A stretch of 36,240 bases of DNA from Aquabacterium olei (lineage in GTDB: Bacteria > Pseudomonadota > Gammaproteobacteria > Burkholderiales > Burkholderiaceae_C): contig JAJUHM010000004.1 in the NCBI GenBank assembly GCA_029279925.1, positions 1 to 36,240 of the forward strand, read 5' to 3'. A program made the position numbers and the translations under genes. Of this stretch, positions 5,186-29,672 are shown piece after piece (the stretch's first letter is position 1; the number at the start of each line of letters is the position of its first letter). The notes beneath the pieces are model-generated. The model was not told where the DNA came from. It ran no database searches and saw only the letters and a list, made by a program, of their open reading frames with translations.

Positions 5186-6088
5186 TCAGACCCAGCGCAG
5201 GGCTTCAGGGCGCCATGTGGCCGTTGCCTGACTGCCTGAGGCAGCGACCTGGGTCGGCGGCCACAGCAGGTCGTCCAGGAGCGCCACCGTGTCACCCAAG
5301 CTGGCGGCCTCGACGCGGTTCTTGTTGAGGAAGGCTTGCCATTGGCGCAGCTTGGCAGCGTCACCGCTGAACCCCTTGGTCAACGCCAGCGGACGTTCGG
5401 TGGGCAGCGCGGTCTGACGCCGGGCAAAGGTGGCGGCGATGGCTGCGGCCAAGGTGCCACCGTCCAGCTCCGTACGCCGGGCAATGACGGCCAGGTCGAA
5501 GAAGTCCTTCATGCGGCTGTTCGCTTGCCCCAGCATCACCATGGCCTGGTACTTCTCGGCGATCACGGTGTAGACCGGATAGACGCGCAGCACCGGGGCT
5601 GAAAAGTCGCCCAGCAAGGTCGGGTAGGCCACCGTTTGGGGCCCTGGCGTCACGGCGTCGCCGAAGCCCACGTCGATCTGCAAAGCGCAGCGGGCAGACC
5701 CGATGCGTGCCACCAGCGTAATGCGCGTGCCGCCATAGGTGTTGTCCTCTCGAATGGCGTCGGCCTTTACGGAGTCGAGGTCGAACACGATTGCGTCGCC
5801 CAAGTCCATGCGGGCGATGTCGCGGAAGGTGGCGATCAGGTTCGCTTCATCGTCAGGGCCGAAGCCGAGCAAGTCGGCGTCCCTTGTCGGCCGGTGCGGG
5901 GCGTCGTACCAGAGGGCGAAGAGCAGCGCGCCTTTGAGCAGAAACCGGTCGGCATGTGGTGAAGCGCTCACGCGAGCCAGCAGACGCTCCATGCCGAAAC
6001 GGTTGAGCAGCAGGCTGTAGTCGTCGCCGCGCTGCTTGGCGAGGGTCAGCAAGCGGGCCAGGACCGAAGCAGACAGGTTGCCGCTCAT
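5186..6088 (-). CDS. abiEii: AbiEii-type nucleotidyltransferase toxin (type IV toxin-antitoxin)
   Basis: DRFLLKGALLFALWYDAPHRPTRDADLLGFG (nucleotidyltransferase D-x-D) ...AEKYQAMVMLGQANSRMKDFFDL; start overlaps the upstream stop (ATGA). Confidence 0.88.
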   Translation of the reverse strand: MSGNLSASVLARLLTLAKQRGDDYSLLLNRFGMERLLARVSASPHADRFLLKGALLFALWYDAPHRPTRDADLLGFGPDDEANLIATFRDIARMDLGDAIVFDLDSVKADAIREDNTYGGTRITLVARIGSARCALQIDVGFGDAVTPGPQTVAYPTLLGDFSAPVLRVYPVYTVIAEKYQAMVMLGQANSRMKDFFDLAVIARRTELDGGTLAAAIAATFARRQTALPTERPLALTKGFSGDAAKLRQWQAFLNKNRVEAASLGDTVALLDDLLWPPTQVAASGSQATATWRPEALRWV

Positions 6089-6717
6089 TGCGCCAGGGCC
6101 TCCAGATAGGGCTGCATGACCCGCTCGACCCGATTGATCTTGGCAAAGTGACTCAGGTCGGCCATCGTGACCTTGCGGCTGCGCCAAGCGTCTTTGAGTG
6201 CCTCCAGCGCCACATCCAGACCGATCTTGTTGCGGAACTTGAAGCAGTCGGTCACCGTCTTGGCCGCGCTGTACACGCGGATGGGGGCACCGTGATCTGT
6301 CACGGTCTGGATGCCGTCGCTGTAGGCTGCGCCGCGCAGGCGCGCGATGCGCAGCTTGGGGTAGTTCAACACCGGGGTCTGACTGCCTTCAGGCAGCGCG
6401 ATCCACACCTCGTGCGGCAGTTGCGTGCCGATCTCGTGGAATTGCAGCGCGCTCAACAGGCACAGCACCCCCTTGGGCACACGTTGGCAGACTTCGATCA
6501 GGGTCTGATGCTCGGTGACGTCGGCATCGGGCAGCCCATACAGGCCCCGGGCAATGCGTTGCAGCTTGCCCAACTGGTGCAGGCGGATCAGCAACTGCGG
6601 TGACCAACCGTGCGCGCGCACATCCTCTGCCCGCAGCACGCGCCGGTGCTGGGCCAGTTGGAGGATGTGATCAGACTGGTTCACGAGGGGTAGTTTAGTA
6701 TCCTCATTACATTTCAT
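6085..6717 (-). CDS. abiEi: AbiEi-type antitoxin/transcriptional regulator
   Basis: MKCNEDTKLPLVNQSDHILQLAQHRRVLRAEDVRAHGWSPQLLIRLHQLGKLQRIARGLYGLPDADVTEHQTLIEVCQRVPKGVLCLLSAL, typical AbiEi wHTH N-terminus; 4-nt overlap with abiEii. Confidence 0.87.
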   Translation of the reverse strand: MKCNEDTKLPLVNQSDHILQLAQHRRVLRAEDVRAHGWSPQLLIRLHQLGKLQRIARGLYGLPDADVTEHQTLIEVCQRVPKGVLCLLSALQFHEIGTQLPHEVWIALPEGSQTPVLNYPKLRIARLRGAAYSDGIQTVTDHGAPIRVYSAAKTVTDCFKFRNKIGLDVALEALKDAWRSRKVTMADLSHFAKINRVERVMQPYLEALAQ

Positions 6718-6726
6718 CAAGTAATG
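6705..6726. promoter_or_regulatory. Candidate AbiEi autoregulatory operator: CATTAC-N10-GTAATG
   Basis: Perfect 6-bp inverted repeat overlapping the abiEi start codon, in an AT-rich patch. Confidence 0.45.
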
Positions 6727-7617: not shown

Positions 7618-10017
7618 GTGAAGCTTCAAGCATATCGCTTGCGAAACTACCGCAGACTGCGCGATGTCGTCATTGAATTGGACGACAAGATTTCTATCTT
7701 TGTGGGTGCCAACAACAGCGGGAAGACATCCGCGGTCCAGGGGCTGTACTCCATGCTCCGCGGCGAAGCGAAGCGATTCGAGCTCTTTGACTTCAGCGCT
7801 GCCCTGTGGCCTGGCATCGACGATGTTGGAGAAGCGGCCGCCGGTGACGAAGACGCGCCGAAGGCGCTTCCAACCATCTCGCTCGACATGTGGTTTCGCG
7901 TCGGCGAGGAAGACTTGGTCGTCGCTATGCCGCTGCTCCCCAGCACAGATTGGGACGGTAAGTGCGTCGGCATCCGCGTGTCCTTCGAGCCAAAGAACCC
8001 CTCCGAGCTCGTTCAACGTTTCAGACAGTTGCGTGAGAAGGGAAACGCAGCTGTGACGGCGCTTGCAGAGAGGGTGGCTGCGGCAAACGAAGGTGGCGCT
8101 GCAGACGCCGCACTGGCTGGCGCGGCGGTAGCGCCGGACGTCAGCGGCTACAAGCCTTGGCCCGAGAGCCTGACGAAGTACCTCACAAGAGAACTGTCTA
8201 AGGAATATACCTTCCGCTACTACGTGCTGGACGAACGCGAGTTCGAGGGATATCAGGAAAAAGGCCCTGCCTACTCTCCGTTGCCTATTGCCGGAGACAA
8301 AGACAAAGGTGGCGCAGCGGTCATCAACTCATTGCTGAAGGTCGACTTTCTGCGCGCGCAGCGCCACTTGGACGACCCGGATGAAGGAACCAGCTCCCGT
8401 TCGGAGAACCTATCCCGCAAGCTCAGCCGCTTCTACCAGCGCCACCTGGAGAAACGAGGAGACGACCACCAAGCTCTTCAGGCTCTTGATGCCTCCGAGA
8501 AAGGCTTGAACTTCCACTTGCAGGAGGTCTTCAAAGACACCCTCGACCGGCTCAAGAAGCTCGGCTACCCTGGCGTCAATAACCCCGAAATCGTTATTCG
8601 AGCCGCCTTGGAACCGAGCACCGTCCTCGGCCAAGACGCAAAGGTCCACTACGTTGTTCCTGGAGACGTCCCGGCACATCTGCCCGATAGCTACAACGGG
8701 CTTGGTTTCAAGAACCTCGTGTACATGGTCGTCGAGCTTCTCGACCTACACGAACGGTGGAACGGTGGTGAAGCAGAGCGCGCACCCTTGCACCTCGTCT
8801 TCATCGAGGAGCCAGAGGCGCATCTGCACGCGCAGATTCAGCAGGTTTTCATTCGTAACGTTCTCAAACTGCTCGAGGAGGACAAGGACCATGACTCCTT
8901 CTTCCACACTCAGTTGGTGGTGACGACGCACTCGCCCCACATCCTCTACGAGAGGGGGTTCTCGCCAATCCGCTACTTCCGCCGCGTCAGTGCCGAATTG
9001 GAGCACCACACAGACGTCCGCAATCTCTCCCGCTTCAAGGCCGGCGACACCGAGAAGGAGGCACGCGAGTTCCTGCAGCGATACCTCAAGCTTACGCACT
9101 GCGACCTGTTCTTTTCGGATGCCGCCGTGCTGGTGGAGGGGAACGTCGAGCGGCTGCTGATGCCCGCCATGATTGAGACGGCGGCACCGCGGCTACGGTC
9201 ATCTGCGCTCACCATCCTGGAGGTTGGTGGAGCGTTCGCACATCGCTTCCAGGAGCTCATCGAGTTCGTCGGACTCACCACCCTGGTCGTAACCGACCTG
9301 GACAGTGTGGAGGTCAAGGAAAATGCAGCAGCTGGCGCGGACGCGGATATGGGCGCCGATGAGGATGAAGATGAGCTTCGACCGTTCGAGGTCGAAGAGG
9401 ATGCCGAAGGCGGTGGCGGAGAGAAGGCAACTTCCAAGAAGCGCGGAAGCACCTGTCATGCGCACGTTCCTAACGCAGTGACGGCGAACCAGACGCTCAT
9501 CAGTTGGCTCCCGAAGAAGCGCTCCCTAGATGAGCTTTGGGCAGTCTCAGCCGAGCAGAAGGTGCTTGCGCTTGCCAACGAGACCAACGCGCATGTCCGC
9601 GTTGCCTACCAGACACCAATACCGGTCACGGTCGGGGGCAAAACGGTGGAGCGTTGCGGTCGAACCCTGGAAGAAGCATTCGGCCTCGAGAACGCCGCTT
9701 GGTGCCAGGCCGAGGCCAATCGGCCGATTGGGCTCAAGCTGCGCAAGGCTGCCACCACACCCGAGGAGCTTGCGCTAGGGCTTCACAAGCGCGTGGTCAG
9801 CCGGAGCTTCGACAAGACTCGATTCGCCTTGGAGGTTTTGGCCAGCGGACCCCTCAACCAGTGGAAGGTGCCAACCTACATCGCCGAAGGCCTGGTCTGG
9901 CTAGAGGGGCTAGTCGCACACGAGCAGGACGCGGAGGGCGCTGTCGCGGCTGGCGCCTGCACGATCGAGCCAGTGAACGGCGGCGCTATCCCTGCAGAGG
10001 GCGGAGCAGCGCAATGA
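7618..10017 (+). CDS. OLD-family ATP-dependent endonuclease (AAA/ABC ATPase + TOPRIM; GajA-like/class 2 OLD); the ORF also allows ATG at 7585
   Basis: Walker A FVGANNSGKTS; Walker B LVFIEEPEAHLHAQIQ; H-loop TTHSPHI; TOPRIM AAVLVEGNVERLLMP...ILEVGGAF...LVVTDLDS; followed by a UvrD-like helicase with ATGA overlap. Confidence 0.93.
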   Translation: MKLQAYRLRNYRRLRDVVIELDDKISIFVGANNSGKTSAVQGLYSMLRGEAKRFELFDFSAALWPGIDDVGEAAAGDEDAPKALPTISLDMWFRVGEEDLVVAMPLLPSTDWDGKCVGIRVSFEPKNPSELVQRFRQLREKGNAAVTALAERVAAANEGGAADAALAGAAVAPDVSGYKPWPESLTKYLTRELSKEYTFRYYVLDEREFEGYQEKGPAYSPLPIAGDKDKGGAAVINSLLKVDFLRAQRHLDDPDEGTSSRSENLSRKLSRFYQRHLEKRGDDHQALQALDASEKGLNFHLQEVFKDTLDRLKKLGYPGVNNPEIVIRAALEPSTVLGQDAKVHYVVPGDVPAHLPDSYNGLGFKNLVYMVVELLDLHERWNGGEAERAPLHLVFIEEPEAHLHAQIQQVFIRNVLKLLEEDKDHDSFFHTQLVVTTHSPHILYERGFSPIRYFRRVSAELEHHTDVRNLSRFKAGDTEKEAREFLQRYLKLTHCDLFFSDAAVLVEGNVERLLMPAMIETAAPRLRSSALTILEVGGAFAHRFQELIEFVGLTTLVVTDLDSVEVKENAAAGADADMGADEDEDELRPFEVEEDAEGGGGEKATSKKRGSTCHAHVPNAVTANQTLISWLPKKRSLDELWAVSAEQKVLALANETNAHVRVAYQTPIPVTVGGKTVERCGRTLEEAFGLENAAWCQAEANRPIGLKLRKAATTPEELALGLHKRVVSRSFDKTRFALEVLASGPLNQWKVPTYIAEGLVWLEGLVAHEQDAEGAVAAGACTIEPVNGGAIPAEGGAAQ

Positions 10018-11924
10018 GCAGGCGCACGAACAGTCCAGACACGGATGCGGACAGAGAAATCCATGCGTGTATCAAATCCGTCCCGCCAACGCCTTTCGTA
10101 GTTACAGCTGGAGCAGGTTCGGGCAAGACGACATCGCTCATCAAGGCGATGGACCGCGTGATTGCTGAGCACGGCGCGAAAATGCTGATGAAGAAGCAGA
10201 AAGTCGCCTGCATCACGTACACGGAAGTTGCTGCGAACGAAATTCGAGAGGATGTCAACGCAGACGCGCTCGTACATGTCTCGACCATTCACAGCTTCTA
10301 CTGGACCATCGCAAGCAGCTTCCAAGCTGACATCAAGGTTTGGCTGCGTATGACCCTTCAACGCAGGATTGACGAATTGGTCGAGACGGCGAAGAACTTC
10401 GGTCCGAGGGTTCGTCAGAACACGCGAGACAACAACAAGCGTGACCAGGAACGCCTCTCAAGGCACTTGGAGGAGATAGAGAAGGTCACGTCGTTCCGGT
10501 ACGGCATGGGCAGTGACTATCCGAGGGGCATTCTGGGCCACGAAGACATCATTCAACTCGCGGACCATCTTCTGAAGAATCGGCCCTTGTTCAGGCGACT
10601 TGTAGCGCTGAACTACCCCTTCGTCTTCATCGACGAGAGTCAGGATACGTTCAAAGAGGTCGTCGAGTCCTTCAAGATGGTGGAGGCACAGATGCGGGGC
10701 CGGTTCTGTATCGGCTTCTTCGGCGACCCAATGCAGAAGATTTATCTGAGAGGGTCAGGTTCTATTGGGCTCGAAGACGGGTGGAGAGGCATCACAAAGC
10801 CAGAAAACTTTCGGTGTGCCCAGAGCATCTTGCACGTCGCGAATGCCATCAGGGCACAGGGCGATGGACTGAAGCAGGAACGAGGACTACACGAAGAGCT
10901 GAACGGAACCGAGCGACCAATCGAGGGCTCTGCTCGCATCTTCATCCTGCCCAGGACGATGAACCGAAACGAGGCTCTGGCCCAGGTCCGAGCATGGTGT
11001 GCAATGGCGGACAACGATGAGGGCTGGGCGACGCCGGAGCTTGCGGTAAAGATACTGGTCATCGTCCACCGAATCGCAGCGAAGCGCCTAGGCTGGGATG
11101 GCATCTTCGCCGCTTTGTCGGATAGAGCGCCCGACAGCATCAAGCAAGGACTTCTGGATGGGACGAGCTGGCCAGTGCAGCCGTTCCTGGGCTTCGTGCT
11201 CCCGCTCGTCGCTGCCGTGCAGGACGGGAATGAGTTCGAGGCGATGAACATGCTACGCACGCGCTGTCCTCGCCTGGCAGCAAGCAACCTTGCCGGGAAG
11301 AATGGGGCCCAGTTGCTTCGCGAGGTGCGTGAGGCCAAGCTGGAGTTGGTCCGAATGATGAGCGACGAAGGCTGCTCGATTCGCGACGTGGCGATGCACT
11401 TGCGCGCAACTGGCCTGCTTGCCCTAGATGAGCGTCTTGAACGCGTGCTTGATCTCCAAATCGCCCCGGACGAAGCCGAAGGAGGTGAGGCGGAAGGAGG
11501 GCAGCCTTCGGACTTGCCCGTCCTCAAGTTCCTGAACTGCCCGGCGCCGCAGCTGTCGTCCTACAGCCGATACATCTCGGAAGGGTCTCCCTTCGCGACA
11601 CAGCACGGCGTCAAGGGTGCGCAGTTCGACCGTGTGCTGGTGGTGATCGATGAAGAGGAAAGCGACTATCGGCTATATGACTACGAGAAGGTACTTGGAG
11701 ACGCACAAGTCAGTGCTGCTGACCGAGCGGCATTTGCGAATGGTGAGGACAACACATGGAGCCGGACTTTGCGGCTGCTCTATGTGTGCTGCACCCGTGC
11801 CAAGCGAGGTCTGTCACTGGTCTTTTTCGTGGCCGACCCCGACGTCACTTCTGCTCACATCGTGGCAAACGGCATATTCCCTGAAGGTTCGGTCGTAACC
11901 CAGGCCGTCCTCACCAAAGGTTGA
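10014..11924 (+). CDS. UvrD/Rep-like SF1 helicase (GajB-like)
   Basis: Walker A VVTAGAGSGKTTSLI; motif Ia ITYTEVAANEI; motif II FVFIDESQDT; motif III GDPMQKIY; motif V HGVKGAQFDRVLVV; motif VI RLLYVCCTRAKRGL. Confidence 0.93.
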   Translation: MSRRTNSPDTDADREIHACIKSVPPTPFVVTAGAGSGKTTSLIKAMDRVIAEHGAKMLMKKQKVACITYTEVAANEIREDVNADALVHVSTIHSFYWTIASSFQADIKVWLRMTLQRRIDELVETAKNFGPRVRQNTRDNNKRDQERLSRHLEEIEKVTSFRYGMGSDYPRGILGHEDIIQLADHLLKNRPLFRRLVALNYPFVFIDESQDTFKEVVESFKMVEAQMRGRFCIGFFGDPMQKIYLRGSGSIGLEDGWRGITKPENFRCAQSILHVANAIRAQGDGLKQERGLHEELNGTERPIEGSARIFILPRTMNRNEALAQVRAWCAMADNDEGWATPELAVKILVIVHRIAAKRLGWDGIFAALSDRAPDSIKQGLLDGTSWPVQPFLGFVLPLVAAVQDGNEFEAMNMLRTRCPRLAASNLAGKNGAQLLREVREAKLELVRMMSDEGCSIRDVAMHLRATGLLALDERLERVLDLQIAPDEAEGGEAEGGQPSDLPVLKFLNCPAPQLSSYSRYISEGSPFATQHGVKGAQFDRVLVVIDEEESDYRLYDYEKVLGDAQVSAADRAAFANGEDNTWSRTLRLLYVCCTRAKRGLSLVFFVADPDVTSAHIVANGIFPEGSVVTQAVLTKG

Positions 11925-11972
11925 TACGGACAGGCAATCGGTGCCGCAATAAGCGAGCAGAGAGGACTCCGA

Positions 11973-13364
11973 TTGGATGCACAGAACCCAGATTTACTGC
12001 CGCCGCCAAAGTTTAGGCCCCGCCGGCGGCGTGGCGTGCCGAGTCCTGGTGAGTCACTTGCAGTCGAGAAGCCGGCCATCGCTTCGGTCATGGACACTGA
12101 GACAGGCGCGCACCTTCCTGTCGAATCCGTGATTGGGACGGACTTTGATGCCTTGATGCAACTGCGCATGCGAGTCAGGACCTGCATGCATGCAGATGCG
12201 CCGCTGTATCGGTGCTCGCTGTGTTGCTCGCCTGTACACCTTTGCTGCCAAAAGCAGTCCACTCGGTTCTATTTCAAGCACCGACATGAGCATGGCAACT
12301 GTCCTGCCATCACGCGTGGAGAGTTGAGCCAAGACGAGATTGATGCCCGTCGCTACAACGGCGCCAAGGAAAGCACGCTGCATCTCCGGATGAAGGCGTG
12401 GCTGGCGGCCTGCCTGGCAATCGATGGGCGATTCCAGGACATTGAGCAGGAGAAGACCTGGAAGGGGGCGCTCACCGGCGAATGGCGCAGGCCGGACGTG
12501 CGTGCGGTCTACCAAGGCATTCCGATTGCCTTCGAGATTCAACTGTCAACGACCTACCTGAACGTCATCGTGGAGCGGCGGCAGTTCTACCTACAGAACG
12601 GTGGACTGCTGTTCTGGGTATTCGCCTTGTTCGACAACGAACATCGCCGGATGACCGAAGAGGACGTCTTCTACAACAACAACCAGAACGCGTTCATCAT
12701 CGACGCGAAGACCGTTGAGGCCACGAAAGGCCAGGGGCGCTTCATGCTGGAATGCGTGTGGACAGAGCCAACTCCGGGCGGCGGCACCAGCGCATTGCAC
12801 CGCAAGACCGTCGGCTTTGATGAGTTGACCCTGCGCCCGGAAAAGCAACTGGCCTACTACTTCGACTATGCCGGTCGTAAGGCCGCATTGGCATCGGCGA
12901 AGGAGAGCGAAGCCCAGAGCCTGCGTGACGAAATAGAAGCGTGGTGGGGGAGCGGTGACCCAAGGGGCCCTGACGGGCATCTGCAATGGGCGCGATTTGC
13001 CACGAGACTTCGCCGGCTTGGCGTACAGGTGCCCTCCGAGTTCCGCAAGGTAAACAAATACGCCGTCATCGGTTTGTATTCAGCCAAGCATAACTATCCT
13101 TTCGGCCAGGGGAAGAAGCGGTTGGTCGAGATTGCGCACCACATCGCCAGTGGCTACAAGCACAACCTCAGTTGGTTCATGCATGCGGTCAAGCACTACG
13201 GCCGCAAGGAGAGCATGGAGGCTGAAGGGGATCCCGCGAAATGGGTCGAGAAGCGCAAAGAGTGCGTGGTAGCTTACAAGGTGGACCCCAAACCCTTTGA
13301 GCCCGACAGAGCTAGCCAGCCGCTGATTGAGTTCTTGTTCCCTGAACTGAAGCCATTGCCCTGA
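11973..13364 (+). CDS. Cys/His-rich finger + CoiA-like PD-(D/E)xK nuclease-fold protein (possibly DUF6035-type); TTG start
   Basis: RBS AGAGAGG then TTG GAT GCA; finger YRCSLCCSPVHLCCQKQSTRFYFKHRHEHGNCP; nuclease core AKESTLHLRMKAWL...EWRRPDVRAVYQGIPIAFEIQLSTTYLNVIVERRQFYLQ; 48 nt downstream of the helicase. Confidence 0.75.
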   Translation: MDAQNPDLLPPPKFRPRRRRGVPSPGESLAVEKPAIASVMDTETGAHLPVESVIGTDFDALMQLRMRVRTCMHADAPLYRCSLCCSPVHLCCQKQSTRFYFKHRHEHGNCPAITRGELSQDEIDARRYNGAKESTLHLRMKAWLAACLAIDGRFQDIEQEKTWKGALTGEWRRPDVRAVYQGIPIAFEIQLSTTYLNVIVERRQFYLQNGGLLFWVFALFDNEHRRMTEEDVFYNNNQNAFIIDAKTVEATKGQGRFMLECVWTEPTPGGGTSALHRKTVGFDELTLRPEKQLAYYFDYAGRKAALASAKESEAQSLRDEIEAWWGSGDPRGPDGHLQWARFATRLRRLGVQVPSEFRKVNKYAVIGLYSAKHNYPFGQGKKRLVEIAHHIASGYKHNLSWFMHAVKHYGRKESMEAEGDPAKWVEKRKECVVAYKVDPKPFEPDRASQPLIEFLFPELKPLP

Positions 13365-13674: not shown

Positions 13675-14592
13675 TCACCGGCGCAAAAACTTCAACTGAT
13701 GCGCCAGCATCTCCCGAAACAGCGGATCAAAGTAAGGATCGAAGTGGTTGGCCGCCACCTCGATCACCTGCACGTTCGGGTTGCCCACGCGCTTGACCTT
13801 GTCCGACACGAATGGCGCCACCGTGTCGCCCGTGGCGCCGATCATCAGCATCGGGATCTTCACGTCCTTCAGGCGCACCCAAGGGCGATACAGCGGCAGG
13901 GGCAGCACCGACCTGGCGGCCACGCGGTTGTCGTACTTGTGGTCTGGGTGGGCCGCCAGCGCAGCCTGCAGCGCTTCCAGGCCACCGTCACGGTCCATAG
14001 TGGAGAACTCGCCCTCACGCGACAAGGTCGGCACATGAATGGGTGCACCCGGCTTGATCAGGTCCAGCAGGCCGAGCGCGACCATCTTCGAAAGTCGCCC
14101 GATCGGCGTGGCGAACATCGCGGCCAGCCCGTCGAGCATCGGCACCTGAACGATGGCGCCTTTCAGCTCAGGGTGCTGCGTGGCCAGATCCACCACGTGC
14201 CCGCCACCGAACGACGTGCCCCACAGCGTGATGTCATGCGCCAGCACCTGCTGCTGCGACTTCAGGTGAGCCAGCGCCGTGTCGGCCACCCGCGTTCTGC
14301 GCCAGGGGTTGATGCCTTGGCGCGGGAAGCCGCCGCTGTCGCCCCAGCCCGGGTAATCGAACTCCATCACCGCGAAGCCAGCGTCGACAAAGCTCAAGGT
14401 GAACGACGAGGTCAAGGCCATCTGAACGCTGCCCCAGCCGCCCACCATGAGGATGGCGGGCAGTTGCTGATCGGGTGGCGTGTCCTTCGGCACATAGAGG
14501 GTGGCCGCACACAGCGCGCCCTCTGCCGTGAAGGTGGACTTGATGGCGCGCGCACGCTCCAGCGAGATGTTGGGGTAACGACGGGTGTTCAC
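13675..14592 (-). CDS. Alpha/beta hydrolase (dienelactone hydrolase-like); GTG start
   Basis: NTRRYPNISLERARAIKSTFTAEGALCAATLYVPKDTPPDQQLPAILMVGGWGSVQ...; nucleophile elbow LWGTSFGGGHV; C-terminal VAANHFDPYFDPLF. Confidence 0.88.
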   Translation of the reverse strand: MNTRRYPNISLERARAIKSTFTAEGALCAATLYVPKDTPPDQQLPAILMVGGWGSVQMALTSSFTLSFVDAGFAVMEFDYPGWGDSGGFPRQGINPWRRTRVADTALAHLKSQQQVLAHDITLWGTSFGGGHVVDLATQHPELKGAIVQVPMLDGLAAMFATPIGRLSKMVALGLLDLIKPGAPIHVPTLSREGEFSTMDRDGGLEALQAALAAHPDHKYDNRVAARSVLPLPLYRPWVRLKDVKIPMLMIGATGDTVAPFVSDKVKRVGNPNVQVIEVAANHFDPYFDPLFREMLAHQLKFLRR

Positions 14593-14633
14593 GTTGGACT
14601 TCTTTGATGCGGTGATGGCGGACAGCGGAAGGC

Positions 14634-16154
14634 TCAAGCGGCTGTGACGGTGGCGCCCGTGGCAGCAACGGATTCGGGTGGAGAGAACCGATAGGCGTCG
14701 AGGGATGCGTACCGCGTGAGCCAGCGGTAGCCGAAGGTGAAGCCGGGCCAGTTGGTGCTGTTGTGGCCATTGGCATCGACATACCAGCTCTTGCAGCCTT
14801 GCCACACGGTGTCGCGCAGGCGCGCTTGCACGGTGGCGTTGAAGTGGCTGTAGCGCTGCGCATCGACCTCGATGGCGCTGGCCCGGGCTCGCTGCGCGGC
14901 CTTCATGCAGCGGATGACGTGCGCAATCTGGCTTTCCAGCATGTAGATGATCGAGCTGTGGCCCAGGTTGGTGTTGGGGCCGTAGAGCATGAAGAAATTG
15001 GGGAAGCCCGGCACCGTCATGCCCAGGTAGGCTTGCGCGCCCTTGCGCCACGCGGTGTTGAGTTCCAGCCCATTGCGCCCCGTGATCGTCATGGGTGCGA
15101 GGAACTCCGTGGCCGCAAAGCCGGTGCCGTAGACGATCGCGTCAGCGGGGTGGTGCTGCCCGTCCACCGTCTCGATGCCCGTGGGTGTGATGCGGCGGAT
15201 GCCCTGGGTCACGAGGTGAACGTTGGGCTTGGCCATGGTGGCCAGGTACTCGTTGGACAGCAGGATGCGCTTGCACCCGATGGGGTAGTCGGGCGTGAGC
15301 TGCGCACGCAGTTCCGGGTCTTGCACCTGCCGGTGCAGCAGCCCCTTGAAGGGCACGCCCACTGCCAGATTCATCAGCGCCTTGATGCGCGTGAAGCCGA
15401 TGGCGCGGCTTTCGTACTGGGCATAGATGCGGGCCCGGTGCAGTTTCATCGTCCAGGGCAGCATCCGGAACAGGGCCTTGCGCCAGCCGGCATACGGGCC
15501 ATCCGGGCGCGGCAGGATGTAGGCGGCCGAGCGTTGGAACACGGTCAACCGGCTCACCTGCCCTGCGATGGCCGGCACGAACTGGATGGCCGAGGCCCCC
15601 GTGCCGATCACCGCCACGCGCTTGCCTTTCATGTCGTAGCCGTGGTCCCAATGCGCCGAGTGGCAGACGTGCCCCTGGAAGCTGTCCATGCCCTCGATCC
15701 GCGGATAGACCGGGCGGCTGAGTTGCCCGGTGGCCGTGACCACATGGCGGGCCTGCAGTACTTGGCCGGTGGTCAGCGTCACGGTCCACAGTGCGTGGGC
15801 TTCGTCGTACTGCGCCTGTGCCACTTCACAGCCAAAGCGGATGGCAGGCAGCAGGCCATACTTCTTGGCGCAGTGCCTCAGGTACTGGTGGATCTCGGCC
15901 TGGCGCGCAAACACCCTGGACCAGTTCGGGTTGGGCTCGAACGAGAACTAATACACGTGCGACGGCACGTCGCAAGCGGCGCCGGGGTAGGTGTTGTCTC
16001 GCCACACACCACCCACGTCGTTCTGCTTTTCCAGGATGAGGAACTCGCCCAGGCCCGCCTTCTTCAGCGCAATGGCCATGCCGATGCCTGCGAAGCCAGA
16101 TCCGATGATGAGGGTGTGGAACGGGGTGCTGCCCCCTGTGCCGGTGCGGTGCAT
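14634..16154 (-). pseudogene. Flavin-containing/Baeyer-Villiger-type monooxygenase interrupted by in-frame TAG at 15948-15950
   Basis: N-part [34 protein letters not shown]...[21 protein letters not shown] then TAG; same frame continues FSFEPNPNWSRVFARQAEIHQYLRHCAKKYGL...GKRVAVIGTGASAIQFVPAIA. Confidence 0.87.
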
Positions 16155-16287
16155 GTCTTGAAGCCTCACGTTGCGACGAAGGTCTGCTTGTCGAGCGCGA
16201 ATCATCCGTAAATCGACCGGCACAGAGAATGTTGACTCAGGTCAAACGCTTTATGATTTGGGCCAACGTCATCGGGATTCACCCTTC

Positions 16288-17322
16288 ATGCGCTTCTGGG
16301 ATTTCAAGCGGAGTTCAGCCAGCGTGCGGCTGCTGGTCGAGTTTGGCCAGGAGCGGGGGCTGGACGCCGCCCGGATCCTGTCGCGCTCACGGTTGAAGGT
16401 GGCCGATCTGGCCGATCCGGCGATCGAACTGGAGGCCAGCCAGGAGCTGTGCGTGGTGGGCAACCTCATCCGCGCCTGCAGGCAACCGGGCCTGGGGCTG
16501 GAGGTGGGCATGCGCTACAACTTCGCGTCCTACGGGCTGTGGGGTCTGGGCCTGATCAGCAGCGCCACCGCGGGTGATGCCCTGGCGCTGGCCCTGCGCT
16601 CCATCCCGCTGACGTTCGCGTTCTGCCGCATATCGGGCGGGCTGGACGGTGAGACCTACACCGTGACCTTCGAGCCTCCCGACGTCGAGCCGGCCGTGCA
16701 GCGCTTTCTGGTCGAGCGCGACGTGGCGGCGGCGGCCCGCTTGATGAAGGAGGTGCTGGGAGCGGAGTTCGCCTTGACCCGGTTTACCCTTCAGCACCAG
16801 GTCGAACGGGGGGCGAGCAGCATCGAGGCGCTCGCGCGCATGGCCGGGGTGCGGCCCGAGTTCGGCGCCCGCTGCACCAGCCTGTCCTTTGATCCCAGCA
16901 AGCTGGCACTGCGGCTGCCTCAGGCCAACCCCGTCACGGTGGCCATGTGCGAGCGGGCGTGCGACGAGCTGATGGAGCGGCGCCGCGCCCGCCTGGGCAC
17001 CAGCGAGTGCCTGCGTCAGTACCTGGAAGCGGCCCCCAGCCATGCCGCACCGGACCTGCCTCAGGCAGCACGGGCGCTGGGGCTCAGCGACAGGACGTTG
17101 AAGCGACGGCTGCAGGACGAAGGCATCTCTTACAGAGTGCTGCTTGCCGAGGTACGCGGCCGCCAGGCCAACCGCTTGCTCGAGGATGAAACGCTGTCGC
17201 TCACGGAGATCGCCGAGCGCATGGGCTTCAGCGATCTGTCCAGCTTCTCGCAGGCCTACAAGCGGTGGTTTGGCGTGGCGCCGAGCGTCGGGCGAGCCGG
17301 CACCCAGACCCGTGGTGTGTGA
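16288..17322 (+). CDS. AraC-family transcriptional regulator (arabinose-binding-like N-terminal domain), divergent from the monooxygenase
   Basis: MRFWDFKRSSASVRLLVEFGQERGLDAARIL...; HTH LPQAARALGLSDRTLKRRLQDEGISYRVLLAEVRGRQANRLLEDETLSLTEIAERMGFSDLSSFSQAYKRWFGVAPS. Confidence 0.9.
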   Translation: MRFWDFKRSSASVRLLVEFGQERGLDAARILSRSRLKVADLADPAIELEASQELCVVGNLIRACRQPGLGLEVGMRYNFASYGLWGLGLISSATAGDALALALRSIPLTFAFCRISGGLDGETYTVTFEPPDVEPAVQRFLVERDVAAAARLMKEVLGAEFALTRFTLQHQVERGASSIEALARMAGVRPEFGARCTSLSFDPSKLALRLPQANPVTVAMCERACDELMERRRARLGTSECLRQYLEAAPSHAAPDLPQAARALGLSDRTLKRRLQDEGISYRVLLAEVRGRQANRLLEDETLSLTEIAERMGFSDLSSFSQAYKRWFGVAPSVGRAGTQTRGV

Positions 17323-29649: not shown

Positions 29650-29672
29650 ACGCGTCAGCGTGGCTCACCCGA

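Follow-up and report, generated by a model that had tools for sequence, protein, structure and literature searches.

Gabija, among the commonest of defence systems (about 8.5–15% of genomes; PMC10568477), is by published definition a class 2 OLD gene adjoining a UvrD/PcrA/Rep-like gene (PMC10568477). The assembly formed by its two products, GajA and GajB, has been described (PMC10781630), and one proposal holds that the system targets linear DNA free of RecBCD (PMC12407980). A protein with a CoiA domain is among the defence systems experimentally selected in Escherichia coli (Vassallo et al. 2022, PMC9519451). Here we analyse a locus from Aquabacterium olei, within a stretch of 36,240 nucleotides that we call the window, in which an OLD-type and a UvrD-like gene are followed by a gene for a protein with DUF7830 and DUF6035 domains. 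A preliminary description had read the three genes as one operon with a functional third component, a helicase joined by two nucleases. We find that the locus probably consists of a standard two-gene Gabija system (gajA–gajB) and, downstream of it, an independent single-gene nuclease from the DUF6035 family.

Gene layout and genomic setting

The three open reading frames are confirmed at the following positions of the window, all in the same direction, as are the ATGA overlap of the first two and the ribosome-binding site and TTG start of the third that had been described for them. An AbiE-type pair precedes them.

5186–6720, minus strand: AbiEii nucleotidyltransferase toxin and AbiEi antitoxin pair, by Pfam
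7618..10017, plus strand: gajA (gene 1), 799 residues from GTG 7618, or 810 residues from ATG 7585
10014..11924, plus strand: gajB (gene 2), 636 residues, ATG start, ATGA overlap with gajA
11973..13364, plus strand: DUF7830 and DUF6035 gene (gene 3), 463 residues, TTG start

Gene 3 starts 48 nt past the end of gajB, its TTG preceded by AGAGGA, and because this gap holds no terminator-like site on that strand, gajAB and gene 3 are likely to be co-transcribed. The GC content of the three genes (0.58–0.60) lies below that of the flanking housekeeping genes (0.64–0.69), as does their GC3 (0.69–0.72 against 0.80–0.89), and codon usage is alike in all three against the flanks. The low GC and GC3 are compatible with acquired DNA, a pattern that one acquisition or two would leave alike.

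In a congeneric sister species (G430, locus L127), the ETF genes lie ~190 bases from the ammonium-transporter region; in the window, the ETF genes stop at 2729 and the ammonium-transporter region picks up again at 29672. Because the two regions nearly adjoin in the sister species, ~27 kb (window 2730–29671), holding AbiE, Gabija, DUF6035 and an efflux operon, is missing from the corresponding site there; the source assembly is fragmented (a draft of 640 contigs, 87% complete), which leaves some small chance of misassembly at the locus. The same interval combines its defence genes with genes for TruD, TauE and an ArsA-type ATPase and with an RND efflux operon, and a hydrolase/AraC pair in it (13675–17322) has its counterpart in the sister species on a different contig (L128). 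The AbiEii/AbiEi pair, upstream of gajA and divergent from it, is a second defence-type module in the window.

The GajA–GajB pair

Profile matches of all three genes, to PADLOC or Pfam, lie well above chance level. GajA matches the PADLOC model PDLC00095 (E 5.4e-285, 745 of 752 model positions covered) and GajB the model PDLC00143 (E 7.4e-246, 631 of 632). As the GajA match begins only at residue 13, GTG 7618 is a plausible start for the gene, and residues are numbered from it below. The Pfam domains of GajA, AAA_15 and OLD-like_TOPRIM, mark it as an OLD-family ABC ATPase and TOPRIM nuclease, and its sequence matches the solved GajA structures 8sm3/8j4t at E about 4e-9. GajB carries the Pfam UvrD-helicase domain of a UvrD/Rep-like SF1 helicase-family protein. 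The Walker, TOPRIM and helicase motifs are all intact: Walker A GANNSGKT (30), Walker B VFIEEPE (394) and the TOPRIM motifs VLVEG (504) and VTDLD (558) in GajA, and Walker A GAGSGKT (33), DESQ (207) and YVCCTRA (590) in GajB.

What defines Gabija is present here, namely an OLD-type ABC ATPase–TOPRIM fusion with intact motifs and a UvrD/PcrA/Rep-like gene directly adjoining it, and by sequence the first two genes form a canonical two-gene system of the Gabija (class 2 OLD) type. The preliminary description had made the same assignment, which the PADLOC and Pfam matches and the intact motifs bear out; a PADLOC search returns standard Gabija for genes 1 and 2 and leaves gene 3 unmatched. As in published Gabija (PMC10781630, PMC10568477), an OLD ATPase–TOPRIM gene is followed directly by a UvrD-like gene, with all catalytic motifs in place; the locus differs in having an extra, unrelated gene downstream. 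The window proteins are also longer than GajA of Bacillus cereus, whose solved chains have about 575–600 residues, and GajA is longer than any of the solved GajA chains that it matches by sequence (575–675 residues). That difference in size had been remarked on before and holds, but the separate clade of large Gabija proteins suggested on the strength of it is rejected: PDLC00095 and PDLC00143, 752 and 632 positions long, are among several PADLOC models of such length, and they already span both proteins end to end.

By its membership, the pair most likely works by the mechanism described for Gabija elsewhere. GajA, the OLD ATPase–TOPRIM nuclease, and the UvrD-like GajB would assemble into a large GajAB complex, which would cleave or block the linear DNA of an invading phage, such as molecules unengaged by RecBCD/AddAB.

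A finger protein with a predicted nuclease core

The product of gene 3 scores above both curated cut-offs for DUF7830 (PF25169; 4.9e-15, residues 46–116) and DUF6035 (PF19500; 1.1e-14, residues 130–299; 55.2 bits against a gathering cut-off of 22.6), and nothing notable sets it apart from the DUF6035 family. The CoiA nuclease-like domain CoiA_nuc (PF06054; 4.2e-5), also above cut-off, overlaps DUF6035. Across 50 relatives, C81, C84, H103 and C110 of the zinc finger are invariant, as are E160, P174-D175 and E188-x-Q190 of the PD-(D/E)xK core and three further residues counted with it (E133, H137 and K141). The AlphaFold model (mean pLDDT 90.6, pTM 0.83) has a helical C-terminal half, and the conserved E...PD...ExQ/K core sits on an alpha-beta fold, as in the PD-(D/E)xK superfamily. 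Fold matches are weak, with none in the PDB below E 0.001; the top ones, which include RecU, Hjc, Can2, MGME1 and XisH, are mostly PD-(D/E)xK nucleases, and the closest viral fold belongs to a predicted ‘Competence protein’ (E 1.5e-7). Profiles, conserved residues and model together establish the domain and active-site assignment, and a zinc-finger protein with a PD-(D/E)xK nuclease core is a well-supported prediction. The CoiA-like finger nuclease that the preliminary description had proposed for gene 3 is in this respect sustained, with Pfam, the invariance among relatives, the AlphaFold model and the weak fold matches all in agreement.

Gene 3 shares with CoiA-type proteins the finger, the PD-(D/E)xK-type core and the CoiA_nuc match; it differs from them in its long helical C-terminal half, and it has no match among PADLOC models even at E 10. 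Searches of the NCBIfam and PHROGs families gave no match, and a sequence search gave no relative of solved structure. The likeness to the CoiA-domain system of Vassallo et al. (2022, PMC9519451) is drawn at the level of domains. Relatives of like length and architecture are spread across Pseudomonadota, and the family occurs on plasmids and in a few phages too. In the literature, DUF6035 receives a single passing mention, for being widespread in Acinetobacter; the terms DUF7830 and PF19500 were not found, nor was a functional study of DUF6035, stand-alone phage defence included.

Because CoiA is a competence protein, the CoiA_nuc similarity would fit a reading in which Gabija stands as above and the DUF6035 protein has no part in defence, being instead a CoiA-like nuclease that serves mobile elements, DNA uptake or recombination and lies in a variable region by chance. 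The variability of this region between sister species and the occurrence of the family on plasmids and in phages point the same way. We consider this reading unlikely, as defence genes recur among the neighbours of DUF6035. The recognisable ones are mixed (GajA, BrxC/D, HipA, SngC, AbiJ-NTD4 and AbiEii), GajA being the commonest at 5 of 97 neighbouring proteins. DUF6035 also occurs in two viral contigs without Gabija. A Vibrio phage genome (L113 5920–7170, PQ189354.1) ends in a lone DUF6035 gene, a few genes beyond the integrase, and this solitary, cargo-like place argues against a non-defence role too, since phage cargo positions such as the P2 old locus are often home to defence genes (PMC10568477). 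Gene 3 is most likely an independent defence-associated nuclease.

Gabija and DUF6035 as neighbours

A second nuclease acting with GajAB, and required for protection here or broadening it, is suggested by the 48-nt spacing on the same strand, by the low GC and codon usage common to all three genes against the flanks, and by Gabija–DUF6035 neighbourhoods elsewhere (L042, L048/L049, L063 and a rhizobial group). Seen from GajA, the evidence runs the other way. GajB follows GajA in 16 of 16 relatives (10 plasmid and 6 genome loci, 33–71% identity by tblastn), and a DUF6035 profile search of these loci, with flanks up to about 8 kb, found the family in none (0/16). A different conserved third gene behind the GajAB clade of the window is likewise rejected: one locus (L118) stops right after gajB, so that 15 of the 16 can speak to what lies downstream, and the set shows no conserved third gene beside GajAB, the sole hint of a common one being a weak 28% similarity of a Shedu gene in L106 to an open reading frame in L116. 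Two loci of this set have features of their own. On a Haematobacter plasmid, a reverse-transcriptase-domain gene lies immediately upstream of gajA (L104 6324–7901); on a Klebsiella pneumoniae plasmid, the gajA match is split in two pieces with no annotated gene (L107 8001–10237), which suggests a broken gene.

Seen from DUF6035, the association is similarly loose. Among 88 loci (8 plasmid and 80 genome loci, with flanks of up to 9 kb and many contigs shorter), Gabija went undetected in the available flank at 77, and a Gabija-type pair was present at 11 (L005, L042, L048, L049, L056, L063, L068, L076, L077, L079 and L089), which vary in Gabija clade, order and strand. The tight same-strand order gajA–gajB–DUF6035 of the window is repeated in none of these 11. 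On the DUF6035 gene tree, Gabija adjacency requires at least six changes, the window counted in, and none of the eight clade mates of the window gene (L010–L016 and L020; 100% local support) has Gabija. The tightest association outside the window is in the near-identical loci L048 (8926–14317) and L049, where DUF6035 lies about 100 nt upstream, on the same strand, of a Gabija pair different from that of the window; in L063 it is divergent from Gabija. The rhizobial DUF6035 genes (L005, L068, L076, L077 and L079) have a fixed, divergent neighbourhood in common, in which a divergent Gabija pair lies behind an AbiJ-NTD4-type gene.

Genome-level overlap is nil. Among 398 genomes of the order to which the window belongs, 4 besides the source genome carry DUF6035 and 11 carry a window-type GajA (E at most 1e-30), with none of them carrying both; an OLD-like TOPRIM of any kind is found in 63 besides it, one of which also has DUF6035, on a different contig. 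In a control with Shedu neighbourhoods, 0 of 12 loci lay near Gabija, a sample too small to gauge DUF6035 enrichment, and Gabija at 11 of 88 DUF6035 loci may be an excess or the background of defence islands.

Because DUF6035 and Gabija each generally occur without the other, the DUF6035 protein is very unlikely to be a third part that Gabija requires. The preliminary description had named rarity of the third family beside OLD–UvrD pairs as grounds for giving up its three-part system, and the system falls on that count: 0 of 16 GajA relatives have DUF6035, and the available flanks of 77 of 88 DUF6035 loci, those of the closest relatives included, show no Gabija. With order and strand unconserved as well, we regard a three-component Gabija variant as highly improbable. 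There would be little more room for a looser arrangement, in which DUF6035 acts with several different Gabija lineages on meeting them, making the locus a facultative system of a helicase plus two nucleases; the variable, repeated Gabija–DUF6035 neighbourhoods would then be the trace of facultative cooperation, a reading to which we give only a slim chance. Cooperation special to this locus is conceivable, but nothing speaks for it.

For an independent DUF6035 nuclease beside a standard Gabija pair, we infer that the N-terminal zinc finger probably serves to bind either DNA or some phage trigger and that the PD-(D/E)xK domain would cut nucleic acid. The gene would serve defence on its own, having its island, and possibly its transcript, in common with Gabija.

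This settles the locus as a two-gene system already known rather than a novel one of three genes. The modest lead that remains is DUF6035 itself, a conserved finger nuclease whose genes are spread over Pseudomonadota, plasmids and a few phages, often amid defence genes. If it protects alone, it would be one more single-gene defence nuclease.
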